Source: a virus
IMG/VR virus record: IMGVR_UViG_3300024999_000440
Location: 1-21,943 of that record
DNA length: 21,943 nt
Reading direction: 5' to 3' (one strand)
The notes beneath the pieces are model-generated. The model saw only the letters and a list, made by a program, of their open reading frames with translations. It was not told the DNA's origin and did not search any database. Both the position numbers and the translations under genes were made by a program. Positions 3,918 to 21,943 of the stretch are shown piece by piece; positions within the stretch are counted from its first letter, which is position 1, and each line of letters opens with the position of its first letter.

Positions 3918-4515
3918 TTGGATACTCCATTCTATAATAAAAGTCACTATTATAAATTTTATATCTTGACTCTATACTTGTTAATTGATCTTCACTACAT
4001 CTATTTTTAAATTTAGTCCAAAATCCACATTCTGAAAATTCAGGGCATCCACAGCGATATATACAATTAGGAACAAATGTATCAGACATTTCAGGTTCAG
4101 TATATTTTGTTACAATCTTTAAATCTTCTGCCAATTCTCTAGTTTCTTTACTGGCCTGATAACATAGTCTCTTTCTCATTGTGTCAATTAAGTTCTGAGC
4201 GTTTGCAACACCTTCAAAGGTAACTAATGTCCCTTGAGGTTCTTTATCCCTATCTATACCTGTTCTGTCGCTTCTCTGAGTAGATATGAAGCATTCCCAC
4301 TTATGTCTAGAAAAATGAACTGAGATCCATGATTTAATATTTTTCCAAATCCAATTAACTTTGATTAATCTTATAGGACTATGCTCAGATATTAATAATT
4401 TAGTTTTAAATTCGCTATTTGGCATTGTATCTGTTGCATCTTTATTAACTGTTGTACGACATTTGTTTTTTGCATCTACCCAGTCATTTTCAAACTTATT
4501 AATTTGTGTTTTCAT
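3907..4515 (-). CDS. ThyX-like (flavin-dependent thymidylate synthase family) protein
   Basis: Probably related to ThyX, which methylates dUMP to dTMP using FAD and folate. It has 202 aa, with the ATG at 4515 behind GAGAGGAAG. Seen in the protein: SEHSPIRLIKVNW (43-55), which matches the EHSPxR segment of ThyX; then FSRHKWECFISTQRSDR (68-84) where ThyX has its RHRxxS-NE-S-RY signature, here with RHK and a two-residue longer spacing; then RKRLCYQASKETRE (114-127), like the C-terminal substrate-binding Arg region. After the ThyX-like part comes a Cys cluster (CIYRCGCPEFSEC, 151-163). The altered signature leaves activity uncertain. The position next to a nucleotide kinase and a nucleotidase supports a role in dNMP supply. 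Its 3' end overlaps the kinase start by 11 bases. Confidence 0.6.
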   Translation of the reverse strand: MKTQINKFENDWVDAKNKCRTTVNKDATDTMPNSEFKTKLLISEHSPIRLIKVNWIWKNIKSWISVHFSRHKWECFISTQRSDRTGIDRDKEPQGTLVTFEGVANAQNLIDTMRKRLCYQASKETRELAEDLKIVTKYTEPEMSDTFVPNCIYRCGCPEFSECGFWTKFKNRCSEDQLTSIESRYKIYNSDFYYRMEYPNEK

Positions 4516-4533
4516 ATAATCTTCCTCTCTTAT

Positions 4534-5019
4534 CTAAAATTTAATTTTATCATATATCCCTTTAAATCTATAAATACATTGATTCCTATGAGTACAGCCC
4601 CCACAATTCCTATGATAATAGTCAAGTTGCGAATAGCAGGACAAACGATTCTTATAAGGCACATACCCATTTTCAATAACTTTTATTTCTTCATCAGATA
4701 TTTCAATATTATCTTCTGATTTATTTTCAGTTTGACTCAATTCTAATTCATACTCTTCTAATGTTCTTAAATACACGCTAGATATAGAATCTAATTGTTC
4801 TCCATCATCAAATTCAATTTTATAATAATCATTATTTTTTCTTCTACTATGCTTAATAATAGTAGATTCTAAACCCTTATAGTTTGTAGTCATTCCAACA
4901 TAAATTGCTTTGCTTTTTATAGGGAATTTAAATTCTTTTTTGATGTCTGAAATTTCACTATACTTATCTTGCTTCTTAGGTTTCTTCTCTCTGGGAGTTA
5001 GGTTTATAGACTTTGCCAC
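4534..5019 (-). CDS. Hypothetical protein with a Cys-rich C-terminus
   Basis: No named family recognised. The N-terminus is strongly basic (PREKKPKKQDK). A central segment at about 40-85 (KAIYVGMTTNYKG, then YYKIEFDDGEQLDSI) looks like a small beta-barrel of the Tudor/KOW type. Next comes an acidic linker, then a C-terminal CYSQLDYYHRNCGGCTHRNQC with four regularly spaced Cys that could bind zinc. Start: the frame offers GTG at 5028, only 2 bases after AAAGGA, or GTG at 5019 (reading MAKSIN), about 10 bases after it; I prefer 5019. It is the first gene after the promoter at 5065-5093 and leads into the ThyX/kinase/nucleotidase group, so it may be the first gene of that operon. Confidence 0.72.
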   Translation of the reverse strand: MAKSINLTPREKKPKKQDKYSEISDIKKEFKFPIKSKAIYVGMTTNYKGLESTIIKHSRRKNNDYYKIEFDDGEQLDSISSVYLRTLEEYELELSQTENKSEDNIEISDEEIKVIENGYVPYKNRLSCYSQLDYYHRNCGGCTHRNQCIYRFKGIYDKIKF

Positions 5020-5717: not shown

Positions 5718-7262
5718 CTAATTTTCGTTTAATTTTAATATATATACATTGTAATACATCCATCTTAATGGTTTATTTGTTTCTGGGTGTGTTCCGGTCG
5801 AAAGGATTTTATTTTTACAACATTTAGATAGAGAACTATTATCAATTTTGTAATATCTACTAGCATCAGTTAGAGAATTGAAAACTTCTCCTGTTGTTAA
5901 ACAAATTACCTTTTTAGATATTTTTTCATACTTAGTTTTTAAATTATCAGCTTTTTGTTGTTCAAAATTATAATCACACCAACTTAATTCTGCTCCTTGT
6001 TTTAAATACTTTTTTATTGTTGTTTTATTTAATTTAAACAACTTTGCCAATCGTGAGATTGTTTTAATCCCTCCTTTCCACATGTCGCATACTGTTTTTA
6101 CTAGGTTAATGCTCCCTGCTTCATGGCATTTCAACCAATCTATATCTGATTCTTTAAATCCTAATAATATAGGTAATCTAGACTTCATAATACTATTTTT
6201 AATCCATTCCAATTCACTTTTTCTACAATCTAAAATTATGTAATTCTTAATTTTATTCAATCTAGCCAACCATTCTTTATCAAAATCATTATCCTGTGTT
6301 TCTTCTAATGTTGCCCAATTATTATTTGAGTCCTCATAATGTTGAATTCCGTGGGTTTCAATTATGCAATTGATACCTTTAATATAATTATCATATCTAT
6401 AATTATTACACCACTTGATCGTCCTTTTCGACAATTGCGGTATAAAATTAACTTTAAGTTGTTCTAAAAAGTTAAACAAAAACTTCTCAGAATAAGGTAC
6501 TCCGTCACTGCATTTTGGACAAGAAAAGCCATGATTTGTTAACTTATTAATTGCAATTTCTTTCTCATACCCACAGTCTGGACATCTCATAGGTAACTCT
6601 TTAATTGAACCATATGAATATTTATCAGCATCATCTATATTTACTAAATATTTTACTGATTCTGGATGAGTGAGTTTTATTGTGTTACATTTATTACAGT
6701 TAAGACTTTGTTTCCCACCTGTAAAATTATTAATACTTTTCAATTCCGATCCATGTTCGGGATGATATAAACATTTAAACCAGTAACCTATTTTGTTTAT
6801 CCCGTTAGAACTATAACTTACATCTTTAGGACTTAATTTATTTCCATTCTTATCAACATTTAATTCATAATCCCAACGAGATAATAATCTATCTGCATCA
6901 AATTTAGATAAATTTAAGTAACACCATTCAAAGAAGCTAATCCATTTTTCGTATCCGTTCTTTGCACATTTAGTACAATAGTATTTTTCTTCTTCTCTTA
7001 ATGATTTTTTATAATTTTGCCAAATTACCCCTGTTAATAATTTTCCGCATCCATCACATTCCACATCTACGGTTATATGAGACCCATCTGGCAAATCTTC
7101 TGCTTTTATTATAATTTTAGTATTTCTTTTAAGATGCTTTATTCCTTTTATGTCAATTGATTTTGGTATTGTATATCCTTTATTTTCATACCATTTCACT
7201 GTTGTTGTATTTATGTTCATTTCAATTTTCTTTGTTAGTAGCACTAGGTTATCATCCTCCAT
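5718..7262 (-). CDS. Vsr/EDxHD-like homing endonuclease with zinc ribbons and NUMOD1-type tail
   Basis: Predicted mobile DNA nuclease, 514 aa from the ATG at 7262. In order: zinc-ribbon-like pairs CDGC (69-72) with CTKC (96-99), an NCNKC (188-192), and CPDC (227-230) with CPKC (248-251). Then comes a Vsr-like catalytic core, PYSEKFLFNFLEQL (256-269, E259), RYDNYI (289-294, D291) and IIETHGIQHYE (300-310, H304), which fits the E-D-x-H-D arrangement of the EDxHD family. Then IILDCRKSELEWI (342-354), a helix-turn-helix-like ISRLAKLFKLNKTTIKKYL (402-420), and a NUMOD1-like DNA-binding tail (452-485, CLTTGEVFNSLTDASRYY). Start is uncertain: GGAGGAT lies just inside the frame and would better serve a GTG at 7244; an ATG at 7220 is also possible. 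The repeats at 5613-5677 follow it. Target unknown. Confidence 0.75.
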   Translation of the reverse strand: MEDDNLVLLTKKIEMNINTTTVKWYENKGYTIPKSIDIKGIKHLKRNTKIIIKAEDLPDGSHITVDVECDGCGKLLTGVIWQNYKKSLREEEKYYCTKCAKNGYEKWISFFEWCYLNLSKFDADRLLSRWDYELNVDKNGNKLSPKDVSYSSNGINKIGYWFKCLYHPEHGSELKSINNFTGGKQSLNCNKCNTIKLTHPESVKYLVNIDDADKYSYGSIKELPMRCPDCGYEKEIAINKLTNHGFSCPKCSDGVPYSEKFLFNFLEQLKVNFIPQLSKRTIKWCNNYRYDNYIKGINCIIETHGIQHYEDSNNNWATLEETQDNDFDKEWLARLNKIKNYIILDCRKSELEWIKNSIMKSRLPILLGFKESDIDWLKCHEAGSINLVKTVCDMWKGGIKTISRLAKLFKLNKTTIKKYLKQGAELSWCDYNFEQQKADNLKTKYEKISKKVICLTTGEVFNSLTDASRYYKIDNSSLSKCCKNKILSTGTHPETNKPLRWMYYNVYILKLNEN

Positions 7263-10295: not shown

Positions 10296-13200
10296 CTAAT
10301 TACAACGTTGATATGTGCATTTAGTGCATTGTACGCACCCATCATATTTTGTTAAAGTATATTCACCACATTCAGGACATTTAAATTTTTCATCTTTATT
10401 AGATTCTATTTGTAATGGTTTTACAGTTTTAATAATTATATCTTTACTAGGTTTTAATTCTCCATTCAAGAATTTAATCATTTGTTTAGCAATTCCATCC
10501 CCACAACTCTTACCAACCTCTTTATCTTTTTTATGTGCTGCTACGCTTACATCGCATTTAACACTTTGTAATTGTTCGATGATTACATAAGGATCAACAT
10601 TAGCTTTTAACATCGTAGAGATCATTCTAGTGAGTGCTATGGTCATTCCCTGACATCCACCACTGGAACCACTTTGAGAGAATACTTCACACAATTTTCC
10701 TTCGTCATTGTATATTAAAAATAACCACATTGAACCACAGCCAGTTTTTACTTTTAATCTTACTGAATTAGCAATATCTAAAGTCTCATTAATTGGAACA
10801 TATTTATTAACCTCAATTGGTGATTCTGCACTCAATACTTGATTTTCCCTTGAATTTTGGACATAGACTGTAGTACCTTTACATCCTAGTTCCCATGCCA
10901 TCATAAATGCTTTATAAACATCTTCGACAGTAGAATTTTGAGACATATTAATTGTCTTTGATAAAGCGTTTGTAGTTACTTGCTGTAATTCTGCTTGCAT
11001 TTTAATATGATCTTCCCATGATATTTCAAGAGAAGTTTTAAATAGTTTTTGCCATTTTTCAGGTACACCCTTGATTCCTTGACAACTTCCACTATTATCA
11101 AGTATTTCTTTAATTATATTATCATTTAACCAACCCTCAGAATTTCCAATATCCCTAAACAAAGAATTTACCATTATGTATTCTTTTTCTCTCATTAAAC
11201 GTCTAAACACAATAGCAAAATAAGTTTCAACCCCTGAACTTGCACATTCTTCATCTAGAAGTAATTGTGTAGCACCTGTCGGTTGACCAGAAGTAACTGA
11301 TAAATTTCTAATTCTAATTCCCTGTTCTTCAAATGTGCTACCATACCAACCTTCAGGTAATTCTCTACCTTCTTCAATTAATTTACAGCTATAGGCCTGT
11401 GCTGTATCAGTAATTCTTTTTAATATTGATTTAGCAAATATTCTACCTTCTTTTGAATCATATGCTAATCCTTTTAATGTCAACATAGGATTTAATCCCA
11501 TTACTCCAATGCCTAATTTGCGTGTTAATAATACAGCTTTTTCAATTAATTCATCTGGTAAATTATTAATATCAATACTATTATCTAAAAATCTTACTAT
11601 TGTTTCTGTAACATAATCTAATTTATCGAAATCAACATTCCCATTTTTATCAATATATCTTTGTAGATTATGTGCAGATAAATTACATGCTTCATTATCA
11701 TACAAGGGAATTTCTCCACACTGTCCTGTAACAATTCCATTAAAACATCCTTTGTGTTTTAGAGGTTCATTGAAACAATATACAGATTCTTCAATATTTG
11801 ATTGATTGACAATCTCAGTTACATAGATAAATTTACTAGCATCTCTATTAGGATTTGCAATTAATTCAACTCTATTAGTATGTAATTGCAATTGCATTAA
11901 TTTATACACATTACTTGTATTTATAAGTAATCTAAAACAATCCTGACACTGATATTCTTTTGTATCATTTTCTCCAAATGGCATTTCTTTTTTTGTTGCT
12001 TTTTTATTTAAAGATAGTGTTGCATTACAACCTAATGTATTAAGCATCATTTTAATATCACTGAGAAAGTTTCTATCAATAGAACTTATTGCAATGGAAC
12101 CATCTTTTGAATTTAATGTGCCATCTGTATCAATGATCCCTGCTAACCAATGTAGTCTATTTTCTATGGAATAGTTTTGATCTGGCACAAATTCTTTAGA
12201 GTATGGTTTGTAATCATTGGAAAGTCTAACATGAATTCTATCACTTTTTTCTTCATCTCTTGAATTAAGACAATCAATATATTGCAATAAACCTTTTTTA
12301 ACATCATATAAACTAATACATTGCCAATTCTTTTCCGTATTGTAGAATCCATCCCCTGCATATACACCCAAAGTATACATAAATTTATTTTCTAATTGCA
12401 TTTCTCCTTCAATAATTGGGAAATTATATTTATCCAACTTATCATTAATCTCCAAATCTTTTGCATCTTTAATTAGAACTTTATTTGTGTAACACTCTCT
12501 ACCTAAATTACTTTTTACGTGAAATTTATGATAAGGAGTACATTTTAATTCAGAACCATCACTAAATTTTACTAATAATATTTTTTGATTAGTATTTGTA
12601 ATTGTAGGAGTTACTTCAGAAAATTCTGTACCATTCCATATGTTTACTTTTTTATCTAATACAGAATCAATTCTAGAATATCCTTTATCAGTTAAAACTA
12701 AGGTATCTCCAGTTACACACGCATTACATGAGTCAATTTCACCAAGATTTTTAACACAAGGATTATCTTTATTAATGGTAGAACCGAAGAGAATTCCTGG
12801 TTCCGAATGATATCTAGCATTAGTAACAATTTTATTAAATAATTCTCTAGCATTAATTGTTTTTGTTACATATCCAAGTGGACTTTTTAATTCAATGTCT
12901 TTATTATCCTTTACTGCTTGCATAAAATTATCATCTACAAGAACTGAAATATTAAAGTTTTTAATTTCATTGTGGTCTGATTTTACTGTAATAAACGATT
13001 CAATATCTGAATGATAAATATCCATTACAATAATACCTGCACCTCTACGTCTTGCTTGCATAACTACGTCTAATGTTGTATTAAAAACCTTCATAAAGGA
13101 AATTGGGCCTGTACTTTTACCTTTTGTTGAAACTATTTTAGCATCTTTTTCACGTAATTTTGAAATATTTAAACCAATACCACCACCCATTTTAGTGATA

Positions 13201-13502
13201 ATTGCTGATCTTTCATTTGTATAAAAAATTGAATGTAAATCATCTTTTAAACCACCAACAACAAAACATGATGATAGCATATTATTTACACCAGCATTCA
13301 TTAGGAATGGAGTTGCTGGCATCCAATATCCCTCTACAATTGTATTATAGAATCTATTTGTCCAATATTGTATTAATTCTTCTGTTTTTTCTACACTAGC
13401 AATTTTTTTCGATACTCTCATAAACATTTGTTCTGGATTTTCATTTTCTAGTAGATAATCTGATTCTAATATGTAATTTGCAACCTCATTAAATTTGTAC
13501 AT
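10296..13502 (-). CDS. nrdJ: Class II (B12-dependent) ribonucleotide reductase containing an intein
   Basis: Reduces ribonucleotides to deoxyribonucleotides using adenosylcobalamin; cytosolic. The precursor is 1068 aa, about 735 after removal of a 333-residue intein (C262-Q594). Seen in the host protein: first redox Cys in LSSCFVVGG (C79), KMGGGIGLN, the radical-site triad NxCxE formed by N260, C595 and E597 only after splicing, second redox Cys in EACNLSAHNL (C606), SGQPTGATQ and SSGVETYF, GCKGTTVYVQNSRENQVL, a TSCPD domain (about 913-1012) and a C-terminal Cys-rich tail (KCPECGEY to QRCN). These fit class II (NrdJ) rather than class I or III. The ATG at 13502 has GGAG about 7 bases upstream. 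It is followed by the MazG-like gene and preceded by an endonuclease VII-like gene. Confidence 0.92.
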   Translation of the reverse strand: MYKFNEVANYILESDYLLENENPEQMFMRVSKKIASVEKTEELIQYWTNRFYNTIVEGYWMPATPFLMNAGVNNMLSSCFVVGGLKDDLHSIFYTNERSAIITKMGGGIGLNISKLREKDAKIVSTKGKSTGPISFMKVFNTTLDVVMQARRRGAGIIVMDIYHSDIESFITVKSDHNEIKNFNISVLVDDNFMQAVKDNKDIELKSPLGYVTKTINARELFNKIVTNARYHSEPGILFGSTINKDNPCVKNLGEIDSCNACVTGDTLVLTDKGYSRIDSVLDKKVNIWNGTEFSEVTPTITNTNQKILLVKFSDGSELKCTPYHKFHVKSNLGRECYTNKVLIKDAKDLEINDKLDKYNFPIIEGEMQLENKFMYTLGVYAGDGFYNTEKNWQCISLYDVKKGLLQYIDCLNSRDEEKSDRIHVRLSNDYKPYSKEFVPDQNYSIENRLHWLAGIIDTDGTLNSKDGSIAISSIDRNFLSDIKMMLNTLGCNATLSLNKKATKKEMPFGENDTKEYQCQDCFRLLINTSNVYKLMQLQLHTNRVELIANPNRDASKFIYVTEIVNQSNIEESVYCFNEPLKHKGCFNGIVTGQCGEIPLYDNEACNLSAHNLQRYIDKNGNVDFDKLDYVTETIVRFLDNSIDINNLPDELIEKAVLLTRKLGIGVMGLNPMLTLKGLAYDSKEGRIFAKSILKRITDTAQAYSCKLIEEGRELPEGWYGSTFEEQGIRIRNLSVTSGQPTGATQLLLDEECASSGVETYFAIVFRRLMREKEYIMVNSLFRDIGNSEGWLNDNIIKEILDNSGSCQGIKGVPEKWQKLFKTSLEISWEDHIKMQAELQQVTTNALSKTINMSQNSTVEDVYKAFMMAWELGCKGTTVYVQNSRENQVLSAESPIEVNKYVPINETLDIANSVRLKVKTGCGSMWLFLIYNDEGKLCEVFSQSGSSGGCQGMTIALTRMISTMLKANVDPYVIIEQLQSVKCDVSVAAHKKDKEVGKSCGDGIAKQMIKFLNGELKPSKDIIIKTVKPLQIESNKDEKFKCPECGEYTLTKYDGCVQCTKCTYQRCN
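11721..12719 (-). mobile_element. LAGLIDADG intein inserted at the radical cysteine of the reductase
   Basis: Residues 262-594 of the reductase precursor. Block A is CVTGDTLVLTDKGY at the N-terminus with nucleophile Cys. Block B is LKCTPYHKFHV with the Thr-x-x-His pattern. Two LAGLIDADG motifs, TLGVYAGDGF (about 377-386) and WLAGIIDTDG (452-461), indicate a potentially active homing endonuclease. The C-terminal block reads VYCF then NGIVTGQ, followed by Cys as the +1 residue. The last residue is Gln instead of the usual Asn and the residue before it is Gly instead of His, a known but atypical class of C-termini. The insertion point lies between A261 and the catalytic Cys. Confidence 0.9.
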
Positions 13503-13551: not shown

Positions 13552-14013
13552 CTATTTCATAAATCTTTTTAAAAATATATCGGGTGTAGCTATCCCTAAA
13601 ATATAATCCGATGCTCTTAACAATAAAGTTGGATCATCTTTAAAAAATCCTAAACCCTTATTACAATTTGCACATAACATTCCTCTAATTCTTCCACTTT
13701 GATGTGAATGGTCTATCCCTAAATTATCTATACTTCCACATATAACACATACTTTATTCAATGAATCATATTCTTCTTTTGAAATACCATAATTAGATTT
13801 GGCTTTTATAAATGCAACTTTATCTTTGTTTTTACCTACCCATGTTTTTTGACTTTCTTTTGCCTTTTCTTTATTGTTTTGATAATATGATTTACTTTGA
13901 TTTTTAGAACATTCTTTACACCATGATGTAGGTTCCCCTTTATTTTTACCTTTCTTCTCAATGTAAAATTCAGATTCTTCTTTAAATGTTTCGCATTTGG
14001 GACATTTTTTCAT
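13552..14013 (-). CDS. Endonuclease VII-like nuclease (His-Me finger)
   Basis: Predicted DNA nuclease of the recombination endonuclease VII family, 153 aa. An N-terminal zinc-ribbon-like part, CPKC (4-7) with WCKEC (31-35), is followed by a basic linker. The catalytic His-Me domain shows CVICGS (89-94), LGIDHSHQSGRIRGMLC (98-114; D101, H102, H104) and CANCNKGLGFF (114-124; C114, C117, N118), closely following the family pattern. In T4 this family resolves branched DNA; free-standing phage copies can also act as homing nucleases, and this one sits directly before the intein-bearing reductase gene. The ATG at 14013 overlaps the TGA of the previous gene (ATGA) and has GGAG just upstream, so translation is coupled. 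Confidence 0.82.
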   Translation of the reverse strand: MKKCPKCETFKEESEFYIEKKGKNKGEPTSWCKECSKNQSKSYYQNNKEKAKESQKTWVGKNKDKVAFIKAKSNYGISKEEYDSLNKVCVICGSIDNLGIDHSHQSGRIRGMLCANCNKGLGFFKDDPTLLLRASDYILGIATPDIFLKRFMK

Positions 14014-15415: not shown

Positions 15416-17671
15416 TTAACGAAGTAGTAATTCTTTAAGATGTGTCTTTCTATTGAAATCTGCTTTTTTCTTAATAGCCCTATTTACTGTTTCTATTTCT
15501 CCAAAGTGAAATACCTTTTGTTTTGCTCTCGTTTGCGATACATAAATCAGATTACTATTGAGCATAAAGGTATGAGCTTTAGGGGTAATCATAATAACCT
15601 TTTCACATTGACCGCCTTGGCTCTTTAATATCGAAATACTATATGAAAGCTTAATATTAATCAAATCACTTTTATTATAAATAACAACTTCATCAAATTG
15701 AATAATTAATTTACCATTCTTGATTTTTACTATTTTGCCTATTTCCCCATTTGCCACAAAAGTTTTATCATCTTCATCTATAAAATCATCATTATATCTT
15801 ATTGCTTTATAATTATTCACAGATTGAATGACAAGATCATTCTCATAAAATTTCGTTTCACCAAGTTGAACGTAAATATTTCCTGATAATACGTTAGGAT
15901 TTGCTATAGGTTGTAGATGTTTATTTATAGCAACAGTTCCGTAATCACCTACATTATAAGATGATAAAATCATTATATCTTCTTTGGAAGTTCCAGATGA
16001 TAATAGTTTTTTGTATAGGGCAACCACATTTTTCATTATATTTTCTTGTAACATAGGTATAAACATATATCCTTTGTCATCACCAAATATTTGTGGATTT
16101 TGAGAATTTGCTAAGAATTTTTCGCTATTTCTAGTTTTCGTTGCGACAGTTAATACTCCTCCTTCTCCATATCTGAAAATTTGAGTAAGAGAAACTATTG
16201 GAATTAGATTTGAATTAATTAGATCATAAAAAACATTACCTGCACCAACAGAAGGCACTTGGGCACTGTCGCCTATCATCAATAATTTAGTTTTAGAGAA
16301 ATCAATTGCCTCTAATAAATGCTTCATTAAAAATACATCACACATAGAAAATTCATCCACACAGACGATAGAATATGACAATTTAGATTCTTCATTATAT
16401 CCCCATACTGGAGGTTTATATAATAACCCTCTGTGGATTGTAGATGCAGGTTCTTTTGCATATTCACCAAGGATCTTGGCCGCACGACCAGTTGGAGCAA
16501 ACAAACAAAATGATTTATTATTATCGTTCAACATATCAATCAAAGATTTAGTTGTAGCGCTCTTTCCACTTCCACTAAAACCATTGAGAATGCACACATT
16601 AGAATTACACACCATAGGTAAAACTTTATGTTGTTGCTCTGTGAGAGTAATATCTCCATTATTCTTATATTTTTCAGTATCAATATTCCATTTATTATCC
16701 ACATTCAAACCTTCTAGAATTCTCTTAGCAATATATTCTTCTGTTTGATATGTTTCCTCTAATGCCACAGTTTTATTTACTTTATCAAAATGAATATCTT
16801 TATCACTTTTAACAATATCAACAAAATGCTCAATACATTTATTTGCTAATGATTCAGATTGTTTCCTTAACTCCTTAACTTCCATTTTAGTATTCCCATC
16901 ATTCTCATTTTCTTCTAATAAAAACATAATTGCTGATTTTTGTCTTTGACTAGAAGTTTGTAAATCAAAAGTAAAATCAATTGGTGGTTTTTCTCCTTTT
17001 GCTTTTGTTGCAATGCAATCTTTATTAAATTCAAGGAGTATTTTATCTGCTTTCTTGAATGAAATCCTTGATAATCCGCATAAACACATGTACGGATTGT
17101 CTTGTAATTTTTCTTTAATCTTATCAACTGAACCATATTTATCATATAATGCTTTTAATATTTTGAATTCAATAAATCCTTTAAATTCTGTAACTAACTC
17201 TCCTAATACAAAATTCTCAATAATTTTCCTTTTGATTACGTCAAATCTAACTTCGCCAATATTGTATAATTTCTTTAGATCAATATCATCTAAACGATTA
17301 TTGATAACTCTATCAATAATGTCTGGATATTCCCTCATCACTTCATCAACCTGACTATTACTATCTAATATGCTTTGTAAAAACAATCTAGTTGATGTCT
17401 CTGTTTTAGGCATATCCCTTCCTATATTAATTACTTTATACGATATTCCATTTTTTCCTTCCTTTTCTTCTGCTTTTATAGAGTATTCTATACCTGTTTC
17501 AAGATCAGGTAAATTTCCTAGAATGCTGACATTGCCATATGTGTTTTTTGTTATATGTGGATATTTGGTATCATCAACTTCTAGAGCGTATATTTTATAA
17601 TCATCTGTATTGTAGGGGTTTGCGACTACGACTCCCTTGAATTCATAAATTATTTTATTTTTACTTGCCAA
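15416..17671 (-). CDS. RecD2-like ATP-dependent DNA helicase
   Basis: Predicted superfamily 1B 5'-3' DNA helicase, 751 aa, likely part of phage replication or recombination. N-terminal OB-like region (about 5-85), then helix-hairpin-helix-like LYNIGEVRFDVI (135-146) and DNPYMCLCGLSRISFKKADK (191-210), as in RecD2. Motor: Walker A GFSGSGKS (364-371), FAPTGRAAKILGE (391-403), Walker B CVDEFSMCD (437-445), motif III LLMIGDSAQVPSVGAGNV (463-480), QIFR (497-500), and motif VI region SYSISILKSQGGQ then VSQTRAK near the C-terminus. Start: TTG at 17671, 7 bases after GAGGTG; no ATG is better placed. The polymerase stop codon abuts this TTG, and the ribosome binding site lies within the polymerase coding end, so translation is coupled. 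No partner RecB or RecC is visible. Confidence 0.88.
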   Translation of the reverse strand: MASKNKIIYEFKGVVVANPYNTDDYKIYALEVDDTKYPHITKNTYGNVSILGNLPDLETGIEYSIKAEEKEGKNGISYKVINIGRDMPKTETSTRLFLQSILDSNSQVDEVMREYPDIIDRVINNRLDDIDLKKLYNIGEVRFDVIKRKIIENFVLGELVTEFKGFIEFKILKALYDKYGSVDKIKEKLQDNPYMCLCGLSRISFKKADKILLEFNKDCIATKAKGEKPPIDFTFDLQTSSQRQKSAIMFLLEENENDGNTKMEVKELRKQSESLANKCIEHFVDIVKSDKDIHFDKVNKTVALEETYQTEEYIAKRILEGLNVDNKWNIDTEKYKNNGDITLTEQQHKVLPMVCNSNVCILNGFSGSGKSATTKSLIDMLNDNNKSFCLFAPTGRAAKILGEYAKEPASTIHRGLLYKPPVWGYNEESKLSYSIVCVDEFSMCDVFLMKHLLEAIDFSKTKLLMIGDSAQVPSVGAGNVFYDLINSNLIPIVSLTQIFRYGEGGVLTVATKTRNSEKFLANSQNPQIFGDDKGYMFIPMLQENIMKNVVALYKKLLSSGTSKEDIMILSSYNVGDYGTVAINKHLQPIANPNVLSGNIYVQLGETKFYENDLVIQSVNNYKAIRYNDDFIDEDDKTFVANGEIGKIVKIKNGKLIIQFDEVVIYNKSDLINIKLSYSISILKSQGGQCEKVIMITPKAHTFMLNSNLIYVSQTRAKQKVFHFGEIETVNRAIKKKADFNRKTHLKELLLR

Positions 17672-20600
17672 TTAATACACCTCATAATCAAATAATATAT
17701 CTTCTATTTCATTTGTTTTTTGCCATTTTCCACCTATATTTTTTGTTTTAAACTGCTGATTGAATTCATTTACCTTTAGTACACTAAATAATTCGAATGG
17801 ATTTTCTACATATATTTGTGGGTCTTTCACTTTTGTTTTAACTTCATCACCAGTCTGTATTTGTCTTAACGTAACGTATGGTTTTCTTTTATCATTATAA
17901 GTAGTATAATCAACAACAATATAATATTTGCTTCCAACATTTTCATTTACATATACAACATATTCTAAATAGTCTTTTTCAAATTTAACTTGTTCCTTAA
18001 CTGATAGAGGTTTATCTTCAATATTATTTGTACACTCTGTAACTAAACCAACTATATCCAATTCTTTGTATAACGCTGTCGTTTCCTTATTACTATACTT
18101 TTTTAGTAATTCTTCAGTCAAACCCATTTCTTGTATTTTTGACTTATTGATTTGTTTCACTCCATTTAACTTTTCAAATATATCTAGATATTGCAATAGT
18201 TTTTTATTTTTGCCGAATTTTTTAAAGAATCCCAAACCAGTTAATATTTTTAGTTGTCTCAAATTCGCAGATGTTTTTGTAAAGATATCTGTTAACAACT
18301 GAGCAAATGTATTATATTTATTATCTCTTAATTCATACAGTTCGGTTGCTATTTTAAAACTACAATATTTAATACTTTCTATGCCTTTATAAATAGTATT
18401 CGTTTCTTTATTAAAAGTGTATTCTCCAATAGATTTTCCAAACTCGATTGATTTAATCTTAATACCTTTTTCTTTTGCTAGTTCAGTACCCATTTGTATA
18501 TCTTCTTTATTTGCAACGTTATTTAAATATGCTGTAGTAAATTCAAGTGGGTAATATGTTCTAAGTCTAGTACACGCATATCCATTCATCGAATATCCAG
18601 TGGAATGATTATATCCAAATTGATATTCCGAGCTGTCATCGATAATTTGGAGAAATTGTTTTGCTTCTTCTTCTGCTATTTCTCTTGGTTTTGAAGACTT
18701 ACCGCAATACCCTTCTAATATTTTAGGTAATTGTTCGTTCAATAAATCTGTGTCTTTTTTACCAATTGCTCTCCTAGTAGTATCTGCAAGAGATCCATTA
18801 AATCCACAAATATCTGTTAAAAACTTAATTGTATCTTCTTGATATACTAAAAATCCATTATTTTGATTTAGAAGTTTATTAATTTCTTCGGAAGGATTTT
18901 CATTGATTTCCCTTGCTATCAATTTATCTCTATAACTTTTACCAGAAGGTCTCAGACATGCGTTAACTAAAGACATATCATTTATTCTTTTCGGTTTAAA
19001 CTCCTTTAATAAAGAAAAAGAAAAATCACTTTCGAACTGAAATACACCAATTTTTGACATAATCATATCATTCCATACATTTTTATCGTCCCAGTCAATC
19101 TCATGAGATTTTAAATAATGAGAATTAATATATTTATATGTATCTTTCATTATACCAACTGTTTTTAAACCCAATATATCAAACTTAACATAATTAAGAG
19201 AATCAACTGCTTTCATTGCACATGTAGAGACTGGAAAACTTTCATCTCCACCACTATAAAATACACCTAAATTGTCTTGCAATGTGATTGGAGAACCTAT
19301 CATTCCGCTAGGATGATGTCCTTTTGAAATAATTGTACCCTTAATACCATCAAAGTAATAAAATAAATCTTTATTACTTTCTTTTAAATCTTGAAAATTT
19401 TGATACAACTTTTTGGCTTTAATATTAGCTTTTTGACTTCTAATTTGGTTAGCATATATTTCGTGATTGTCAAAGTCAACTGATGATTTTTCTAGATCAA
19501 GTTCTTCTAAATTTACTTCAGATTGTATTATGTCGTTGTATTCCTTGAATATCTTTTCATATTTATCCTTAATACTAGCAACTGCATCTAAATCCTTGTA
19601 ATCCAATCCTTTAGCTAATACATCAATAGTACCTCTATCTTGAAGCGTACCAAATTGTGCTATATAAGATGTCTTAGAAGATCCAAACTTTTTAATAATA
19701 AATTCATAAACCTTCGCTCTGTCTTTTGGTGCAAAATCTATATCTATATCTGCTAAACTTACCCTATCAGCATTACAAAATCTTGAAAAAACTGTTTCCC
19801 ATTTTACAGGGTCAACATCAATAATATCTAATATATATGCAATAGTGCTTCCTCCAACAGAACCCCTGCAAAAACCATAAGGTATATCATTCAAATTGCA
19901 ATAATCAACTAATTCAGACATAAACAATAAAAAACTTTCCATTCCTTGATTTTTAAATGCTAAAAATTCTTCTTGTATATTTAGTTTATATTTAGGATTT
20001 TTATTATCTATCACTTTTTTATTTATTTTATCTTGATATTTTCGCATTATTTCGTCTTTAAATAAATTAGAAACATTGTCTCCATAGAGATTTGGATATT
20101 TGAATGTTTTGTCAAGTTTAAAATCCTCTATTAAGTCTGAAAATTTATTTGTATTTTCTATAGCTTCTAAATATACTTCTTCTGGTAGTACATTCTGAAC
20201 TCTAAATTTGCTAATTAATTCGTCTAATGTTTTCCATGTTAAATCAAATTCTTCCTCAAAACTATTATCTGTCTCGTTTGTATCTGTATTTTCATCTTCT
20301 TCAATTTTTGCTTTTTTCTTTTTTGAGTAATCACTATTTTTTGATTTCTGTAAAATCTTTCTACATGCGGCTTTGTATTCAGTAGATGAATGGGTGTCTG
20401 TTCCTGCTATTAACGGGATATTATATTCTTTACTTAATTCCCATAATAGAGCATTGTATTCCTTTTGATCATTGCAGTCATGATACTGTATTTCTAAAAA
20501 GCATCTATCGTTATTTTTAGCTAACCAATCTAAATATATTTTAAAATAACCATCAGTATCTTTTCTCTTTTTCCATAACATTGATGCTAGACATGCAGTT

Positions 20601-21031
20601 GTTACTATAATATTTGAACTTGTATTCATTAATTCTTCCAGTGAAATTCTAGGATTATAATAAAAATGTCTATCTGTTTTATCTTCGTTCTTACCTTTCG
20701 AAGTTGCTAAAGACATCAATAAATTTAACTCTCTCACACCGTCAATATTTTTAGCGTATAACCCTATATGATAACCTCTTTCGTCTACTTCTAGTTTTGT
20801 ACATAAATACAGTTCTACACCATGAATATATTTTATTTTTGCCTTATCACAATCTTGTTTCTTTTTTACCCAATCAGCTATATTACCATGCTCGGAAAAC
20901 GCAATAGCTTTCATATCATGCTTTTTAGCAAGTTTAATATACTCTTTATAACTAGTGCAAGAATCAGAATAGCCATTTGTATTAGAATAATCAGTATGGC
21001 AATGATAAATTATAAATTTATTGTTATTCAT
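17672..21031 (-). CDS. dnaE: DNA polymerase III alpha subunit, DnaE type, with PHP domain
   Basis: Phage-encoded replicative C-family polymerase, 1119 aa. N-terminal PHP domain: IIYHCHTDYS (H10, H12, D14), FSEHGN (E47, H48), HGVELYL (E73), GTDTHS (D212, H214), so the metal ligands look kept and a PHP exonuclease is possible. A Lys/Glu-rich insert follows (about 235-265). Palm: GFCRGSVGGSTIAYILDI (386-403), SLADIDIDFAP (425-435, catalytic Asp pair) and YVKFDILGLKT (614-624, third Asp). Later GFLVYQEDTIKFLTDICGF and GYNHSTGYSMNGYA match the family; the C-terminus looks like an OB fold. Start: GGAGGT ends directly before an ATG at 21037 but is 7 bases before the ATG at 21031, which I chose. It overlaps the GIY-YIG stop by 8 bases and is followed directly by the helicase. 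Confidence 0.92.
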   Translation of the reverse strand: MNNNKFIIYHCHTDYSNTNGYSDSCTSYKEYIKLAKKHDMKAIAFSEHGNIADWVKKKQDCDKAKIKYIHGVELYLCTKLEVDERGYHIGLYAKNIDGVRELNLLMSLATSKGKNEDKTDRHFYYNPRISLEELMNTSSNIIVTTACLASMLWKKRKDTDGYFKIYLDWLAKNNDRCFLEIQYHDCNDQKEYNALLWELSKEYNIPLIAGTDTHSSTEYKAACRKILQKSKNSDYSKKKKAKIEEDENTDTNETDNSFEEEFDLTWKTLDELISKFRVQNVLPEEVYLEAIENTNKFSDLIEDFKLDKTFKYPNLYGDNVSNLFKDEIMRKYQDKINKKVIDNKNPKYKLNIQEEFLAFKNQGMESFLLFMSELVDYCNLNDIPYGFCRGSVGGSTIAYILDIIDVDPVKWETVFSRFCNADRVSLADIDIDFAPKDRAKVYEFIIKKFGSSKTSYIAQFGTLQDRGTIDVLAKGLDYKDLDAVASIKDKYEKIFKEYNDIIQSEVNLEELDLEKSSVDFDNHEIYANQIRSQKANIKAKKLYQNFQDLKESNKDLFYYFDGIKGTIISKGHHPSGMIGSPITLQDNLGVFYSGGDESFPVSTCAMKAVDSLNYVKFDILGLKTVGIMKDTYKYINSHYLKSHEIDWDDKNVWNDMIMSKIGVFQFESDFSFSLLKEFKPKRINDMSLVNACLRPSGKSYRDKLIAREINENPSEEINKLLNQNNGFLVYQEDTIKFLTDICGFNGSLADTTRRAIGKKDTDLLNEQLPKILEGYCGKSSKPREIAEEEAKQFLQIIDDSSEYQFGYNHSTGYSMNGYACTRLRTYYPLEFTTAYLNNVANKEDIQMGTELAKEKGIKIKSIEFGKSIGEYTFNKETNTIYKGIESIKYCSFKIATELYELRDNKYNTFAQLLTDIFTKTSANLRQLKILTGLGFFKKFGKNKKLLQYLDIFEKLNGVKQINKSKIQEMGLTEELLKKYSNKETTALYKELDIVGLVTECTNNIEDKPLSVKEQVKFEKDYLEYVVYVNENVGSKYYIVVDYTTYNDKRKPYVTLRQIQTGDEVKTKVKDPQIYVENPFELFSVLKVNEFNQQFKTKNIGGKWQKTNEIEDILFDYEVY

Positions 21032-21734
21032 TTGCATACCTCCAAATATATCCGTGTGACGTTTTTACTTTTCTTTTACAGCATTTTGCGATTCCACTAT
21101 TATCATATCCCAATAATTCTTTAACTTCCATACATCCCCAATAAGAACGTATAAAATTTCCCTCTAAATCGTATTGATTTATCTCTCTTGATCTAGGATT
21201 ATTTTTGCCTTTAACGCTAGGTCTATCTCCTTTCATACTTTCTATTTCTTTATCGGTATGCTTTCTTTTGTAAACAGGACTTTTTTCTTTAACAAACCTG
21301 CCATTAAGAGTTTCTTTAATCTTTTTTATTGTTTCTTCTGAATGACGCTTACCATAAAAAGGATTATTTTCGCCAGAAATATCTGCATGATTTTCCTTTA
21401 TTTTTTGTATTGTTTCTTGAGAGTGTTTTGAAATTAAACCACCACTTCTAAGATTATATCCATAACTTGGATTTGTGCTATTGTGTTTTTTAATTAATTC
21501 TCCCTCAATTACACAAGCCTGTTCTGCAGATAGGTTTTCTATTAAAACAATATGTAAAAAACTATCCCATCCATATTTCTTAATAGCGTTCCAAAAATGA
21601 TTATTTTTATTATTATCATAAGGGTTATAACCATTCCCATTTTGCCATCTCATCTCTGTACTTTGTTGTGTTTGACCTATATATAACTTGTTATTTATTT
21701 TATTTACATGTGCATAAATTTTATAATTATTCAT
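21024..21734 (-). CDS. GIY-YIG homing endonuclease with NUMOD3 and NUMOD1-type DNA-binding motifs
   Basis: Predicted homing nuclease, 236 aa. GIY-YIG domain: KIYAHVNKINNKLYIGQT (5-22) with the GIY part replaced by KIY and YIG intact at 18-20, conserved-type Arg in EMRWQ, catalytic-type Glu in VIEGELIKKHN, and GYNLRSGG. Then NUMOD3-like repeats (GENNPFYGKRHSEETIKKIKE and related segments) and a C-terminal NUMOD1-like motif (INQYDLEGNFIRSYWG, SGIAKCCKRK, YIWRYANE). Start: the ATG at 21734 has AGGAGGT about 9 bases upstream; a TTG at 21773 in frame lies inside the previous gene. The gene is wedged between the upstream acidic-tail gene (14-base gap) and dnaE, and the dnaE ribosome binding site is inside its last codons, as if inserted into a replication operon. 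Confidence 0.88.
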   Translation of the reverse strand: MNNYKIYAHVNKINNKLYIGQTQQSTEMRWQNGNGYNPYDNNKNNHFWNAIKKYGWDSFLHIVLIENLSAEQACVIEGELIKKHNSTNPSYGYNLRSGGLISKHSQETIQKIKENHADISGENNPFYGKRHSEETIKKIKETLNGRFVKEKSPVYKRKHTDKEIESMKGDRPSVKGKNNPRSREINQYDLEGNFIRSYWGCMEVKELLGYDNSGIAKCCKRKVKTSHGYIWRYANE

Positions 21735-21748
21735 TATGGTATAACCTC

Positions 21749-21943
21749 CTAATCTAGTAATCCGTCCATCCAACTTAAATCGTCTTCATCCTTTTTATTA
21801 TCTGCCGAACTAAAAGATTTTCTCTTTTCTAAATAAACAGCATATGGTTTATGCAAGTTTGCACTATATCCACTCAGATTTGCAAAGAAGTATGATTCAG
21901 AATCAGTTACTTCTTCCCACCATACATTTTCATCTTTAGTTTT
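21749..21943 (-). CDS. C-terminus of a protein with an acidic tail, possibly an SSB (partial)
   Basis: The minus-strand frame is open from the right edge of the window to TAG 21749-21751, giving 64 residues; the N-terminus lies outside. The visible part starts KTKDENVWWEEVTDSES, has a basic stretch (YLEKRKSF) and ends in an acidic, hydrophobic-capped tail, KKDEDDLSWMDGLLD. Acidic tails with terminal hydrophobic residues are typical of phage single-strand-binding proteins, where they recruit replication partners, and the next recognisable genes are a polymerase and a helicase. This is an inference only; no OB fold is visible in the fragment. Confidence 0.7.
   Translation of the reverse strand, partial: KTKDENVWWEEVTDSESYFFANLSGYSANLHKPYAVYLEKRKSFSSADNKKDEDDLSWMDGLLD

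Follow-up and report, generated by a model that had tools for sequence, protein, structure and literature searches.

The insert in the ribonucleotide reductase gene of this phage DNA is almost certainly a class 1 intein of full length that includes a LAGLIDADG homing endonuclease. As judged from its sequence, the element is a widespread phage allele inserted at the catalytic-cysteine site of reductase large subunits, in this case in a class II host. The window, meaning the whole stretch of DNA that was analysed (a virus record of 21,943 bases), is a fragment of a tailed phage. Coordinates of the reductase gene, the intein and their functional residues are collected in Table 1.

Table 1. Positions of the reductase precursor, the intein and the residues discussed in the text, numbered along the window.
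Feature	Position	Strand	Remarks
Class II (NrdJ-type) ribonucleotide reductase precursor, intein-interrupted	10296..13502	-	1068 aa; Ribonuc_red_lgC/lgN, TSCPD, TIGR02504
N-extein	12720..13502	-	aa 1-261; last residues GEIDSCNA
C259	12726..12728	-	extein position -3; codon TGT (GTA, Val, in relative L001)
Intein	11721..12719	-	333 aa, aa 262-594, in-frame; splicing domain and LAGLIDADG endonuclease
Intein Cys1	12717..12719	-	first splicing nucleophile; invariant in alignments A1 and A4
Block B TxxH (T61, H64)	12528..12539	-	TxxH in 88/88 inteins
LAGLIDADG motif 1, LGVYAGDG	12348..12371	-	
LAGLIDADG motif 2, LAGIIDTDG	12120..12146	-	
Block F:4 Cys (C315)	11775..11777	-	replaces the commoner Asp; Cys in 87/88 inteins
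Block F His (H322)	11754..11756	-	matched to canonical block F by eye
Block G end, Gly332-Gln333	11721..11726	-	not His-Asn; Gln 60/88, Gly-Gln 51/88
C595	11718..11720	-	+1 splicing nucleophile; after splicing also radical cysteine; aligned with T. maritima NrdJ C322
C-extein	10299..11720	-	aa 595-1068; first residues CGEIPL

The class II reductase and its intein

Two protein family models bear on the class of the host enzyme. The window reductase scores 480.7 bits with TIGR02504 (NrdJ_Z, class II), above the cut-off of 400, and 263 with TIGR02506 (class I), below the cut-off of 341, upholding the class II assignment made by an earlier, sequence-only reading of this DNA. The exteins match the Pfam families Ribonuc_red_lgC/lgN and TSCPD; the TSCPD domain is in keeping with an NrdJ enzyme, as is a C-terminal cluster of cysteines. 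Neither the window nor the nearest relative, with a contig of 43.6 kb, shows a gene for a small subunit (NrdB), but all contigs are fragments and the window itself is a 21.9-kb virus record, so that the missing small subunit proves little. Removal of the 333-aa intein leaves a reductase of 735 aa, as computed from translation of the open reading frame. Rfam and tRNA scans of the whole window were empty.

The intein is recognized from its first residue by the NCBIfam model TIGR01445 (intein_Nterm; 34.6 bits, cut-off 24.5), and within its sequence the Pfam models LAGLIDADG_3 and Hom_end score above their cut-offs. Cys1, a TxxH motif in block B and a Cys at +1 identify it as class 1. Its C terminus is Gly-Gln, an accepted variant with Gln at the end and a residue other than His before it, rather than the canonical His-Asn. 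The Cys at position 4 of block F is the second commonest residue there (PMC4031507). An AlphaFold model built from a 57-sequence alignment (pLDDT 92.4) predicts an intein fold with an inserted LAGLIDADG endonuclease, and the best structural matches of this model in the PDB are the intein-endonucleases TliVMA, PI-PfuI and PI-SceI. A sequence search of the PDB with the single intein as query gave no match; with an alignment profile of the intein, the search led to PI-PfuI and to mini-inteins.

In a HMMER alignment to the T. maritima NrdJ (1xje), the segment following the intein, CGEIPLYDNEACNL, falls on CGEIGLSDYEACNL, and C595 falls on C322, the radical cysteine of that enzyme. The first junction of the precursor reads S-C-N-A/C-V-T (the slash marks the splice point) and is devoid of Glu; the second reads T-G-Q/C-G-E and is devoid of Asn. 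Since neither junction holds a whole N-x-C-x-E, it takes splicing to complete the triad. The sequence-only reading had placed an intein ending in TGQ between A261 and C595, at the radical-site triad, and had the radical cysteine, directly after the intein, double as the +1 splicing nucleophile; the alignment and the junctions bear it out on all these points. As N260 and C595 meet only through splicing, the unspliced reductase should be inactive, and the dependence of the enzyme on splicing should thus follow from the geometry of its active site. The same reading had omitted C259, with which the junction reads CNA/C.

Distribution of the insertion site and of the terminal glutamine

A protein search found a homologous intein in 330 phage records, with at least 80% of the length covered in 322. 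Junctions were read in 17 annotated records and 80 environmental contigs; leaving out L019 (a hit in another gene), L003 (small-subunit gene) and L021 (a duplicate), the 97 copies kept represent 88 distinct inteins. All 97 lie directly before the Cys of C-x-E, with N-x (Q-L in a few) on the other side. The window intein thus shares its N-x/C-x-E insertion point with 87 other distinct inteins, which rules out chance, and is homologous in sequence to the inteins found there. A search of cellular genomes by peptide patterns, narrow in scope, found no close relative.

The terminal residue is Gln in 60 of the 88 distinct inteins and Asn in the remaining 28, the commonest terminal pairs being GQ (51) and GN (21). 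On a tree of the inteins, from which the last three residues were left out, 13 Gln/Asn changes are needed and 6 are forced by well-supported branches; the tree was built quickly and has many open forks, making 6 to 13 a rough range. By type of junction, NL/C versus NP/C or NA/C, the same tree splits with 2 changes. Gln is equally common in both junction types (29/44 and 31/44). Because Gln and Asn appear to have interchanged 6 to 13 times, Gln is best regarded, from these comparisons, as a usual variant of the catalytic-cysteine-site allele.

Two features that might have set the window intein apart were considered and dismissed. The Gln end is no oddity, being that of 60/88 inteins. Nor is the class II host, as six further Gln-ended hosts (L022, L024, L035, L044, L048 and L065) pass the NrdJ model TIGR02504 and the junction types split the tree with only 2 changes. 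The rarity implied by the sequence-only reading is therefore not sustained: the insertion site, the terminal residue and hosts of class II are each frequent, and a reductase intein ending in Gln, that of Chilo iridescent virus, has long been characterised (PMC4031507, citing Amitai 2004).

Related insertions were seen outside this set. A NrdB-like small-subunit gene in L003 (3360-4862, plus strand) contains an intein whose two ends are the same (CVSPDTLVLTDKGY...CFNEPKKHKGCFNGLVTGQ) but which has Ser at +1, indicating that the intein family has moved into the small subunit too. In four class II-like phage reductases (L116, L133, L147 and L161) the catalytic-cysteine site is occupied by an intein ending in His-Asn. 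The window intein used as query matched that of L133 and missed those of L116, L147 and L161. Since such inteins occur in no fewer than four further class II-like reductases, several lineages may use the site.

Taken alone, the window intein is one more well-preserved class II example of a common phage allele and carries little weight. The allele as a whole offers natural Gln/Asn pairs, such as L048/L034 and L013/L012, that are suited to a comparison of rates.

Splicing, mobility and the cysteine at -3

Gln-ended inteins are taken to follow the same pathway as the others, with Gln cyclising, other mechanisms being possible; functional inteins that lack the penultimate His also exist (PMC4031507). 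The sequence-only reading described such inteins as known and their final step as atypical. The first part holds; the step is atypical only mildly, being ordinary class 1 chemistry in which Gln cyclises instead of Asn (PMC4031507). By this route, Cys1 would form a thioester, C595 would take over the N-extein, and cyclisation of Gln333 would release the intein, after which an S-to-N shift would join A261 to C595 and complete N-A-C-G-E.

There is a very slight chance that the Gly-Gln end makes the intein splicing-defective or slow, so that the gene would be a relic and its reductase for the most part inactive. The Gln-ended Pol II inteins of Pyrococcus and Methanoculleus do splice slowly and are improved by Asn (PMC4031507). 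Against this stand the prevalence of Gln as the majority terminus of the allele (60/88), the strong purifying selection on the extein (dN/dS approximately 0.1) and the behaviour of the Chilo iridescent virus reductase intein, whose terminal residue is likewise Gln and whose splicing is better with it than with Asn (PMC4031507). Gln is the majority terminus and has repeatedly been swapped with Asn in both junction types, so that in inteins without the penultimate His, splicing from a Gln end looks like a solution that is stable and interchangeable.

The endonuclease probably cuts the conserved stretch in intein-less reductase genes of co-infecting phages, the intein gene being copied in. Among the reductase relatives, a full intein is present in L001 and L022-L024, a mini-intein in L101, and the site is empty in 71; from the sequences, this coexistence of full, mini and empty states is as expected of a homing element. 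The mini-intein of L101, the second closest relative, has 137 aa (4281-4691), occupies the same catalytic-Cys site without an endonuclease and ends in GN. Both LAGLIDADG motifs of the window intein are present, as the sequence-only reading held; they retain their acidic residues in an open reading frame free of frameshifts. In the comparison with L001, dN/dS is 0.24 for the splicing part and 0.26 for the endonuclease, against approximately 0.1 for the extein, and these values point to constraint on both parts of the intein. It is accordingly unlikely, if conceivable in view of the complete loss of the endonuclease in L101, that the element still splices but is no longer mobile for want of an active endonuclease; the intact acidic residues, the purifying selection and the confidently predicted endonuclease fold all argue the other way.

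Divergence between the window and L001 is unevenly spread along the gene. Third-position identity in the N-extein is mostly 80-93% up to residue 232 and drops to 52% just before the intein; within the intein it is 78% over the first 37 residues and 40-62% over the rest; in the C-extein it is 54-68% over much of the length and approximately 85% further down. The corresponding dS values are 0.37 (N-extein), 1.16 (intein) and 0.78 (C-extein). Such a peak at the intein fits replacement by homing with co-conversion of the flanks, as far as the sequences tell; it could also be produced if the intein evolves faster, or by the usual recombination among phages.

Directly upstream of the reductase gene lies a free-standing open reading frame of Endonuclease VII/HNH type (13552-14013, minus strand), possibly a second homing endonuclease for the reductase locus. 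Three further open reading frames on the minus strand resemble homing endonucleases, namely an HNH type (198-1472), a DUF4379 zinc-finger type (5718-7262) and a GIY-YIG type with NUMOD (21024-21773), making up a dense set of mobile endonucleases within 22 kb. A gene for a DnaE-type polymerase III alpha (1121 aa) adjoins one for a RecD2-like helicase (751 aa) at 15416-21037 (minus strand), which suggests that the phage is large and encodes replication functions of its own. The contig L002 shows approximately 94% nucleotide identity to the window where the reductase gene begins and 73% just upstream, which points to mosaic boundaries around the gene.

The shared cysteine had also been proposed as a point of redox or condition control, a suggestion that finds no support here. 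One version of it would have a disulfide between C259 and Cys1 block the first splicing step under oxidising conditions and so turn the reductase off. The CNA/C junction does put a Cys at -3, and there is a precedent in an oxygen-labile enzyme: in the Pyrococcus abyssi MoaA intein, by the account given in the part of PMC10663303 that cites Callahan 2011, an N-extein Cys bonds Cys1 and blocks splicing when conditions are oxidising. A trap of the MoaA type implies an N-extein Cys conserved within the lineage; here the -3 Cys is present but not conserved. It occurs in 1 of the 88 inteins (that of the window only), and the nearest relatives, L001 and L101, have Val instead. Among the 71 class II sites that lack an intein, two have it too, showing that variation at this residue does not depend on an intein. 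In infected cells the cytosol is reducing and would, moreover, disfavour the disulfide. On balance, such a switch is very unlikely. We are equally sceptical of the related notion, confined to this one copy, that CNA/C is a natural redox trap, in which three cysteines (-3, intein 1 and +1/radical) would form one switch and an oxygen-independent reductase would be spliced only when conditions are reducing. From the sequence comparisons, the -3 Cys looks like ordinary variation.

Comparison with known inteins

The resemblance to the P. abyssi MoaA intein lies in a Cys of the N-extein as a potential partner for Cys1; it ends with the lack of conservation of the -3 Cys and the unsupported redox dependence of the window intein. 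The NrdJ-1 split intein has a host that is class II by name, and its insertion, too, interrupts N-P-C-x-E (native flanks NPC and SEI; PMC13123727). Unlike the window intein, however, it is split, lies one codon later, after the Cys, and has an obligate Ser at +1; the radical cysteine is therefore not the nucleophile there.

Phage reductase inteins have been reviewed, with nrdJ and the enzymatically active P1201 nrdE among the cases covered (PMC3653736), and allelic inteins at one shared reductase site are known from SPbeta-type Bacillus prophages, insect iridescent viruses and a cyanobacterium (PMC1635734, where the RIR1 allele at the catalytic-cysteine site is named both RIR1-i and RIR1-l). 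The SPbeta-type phage L018 (SNL/C...GN/CSE) has the insertion point of the window intein, and the Chilo iridescent virus intein has its Gln end, the latter being linked to the window only through L018 and PMC1635734. These RIR1 inteins differ in residing in class I hosts, and the SPbeta-type copy is 26% identical to that of the window.

The NrdA inteins of ICP1 (treated in PMC9040626 and PMC10448857), phiTE, Silviavirus, Rheinheimera and others are homologous over their full length, with 35-43% identity, share the site and mostly end in GQ, but they have class I hosts and NL/C junctions and belong to the opposite half of the tree of inteins. The inteins of uncultured phages in L022, L024, L035, L044, L048 and L065 lack the Cys at -3 and are 39-49% identical to the window intein, with which they share the insertion site, the Gln end and a host reductase scoring above the TIGR02504 cut-off.
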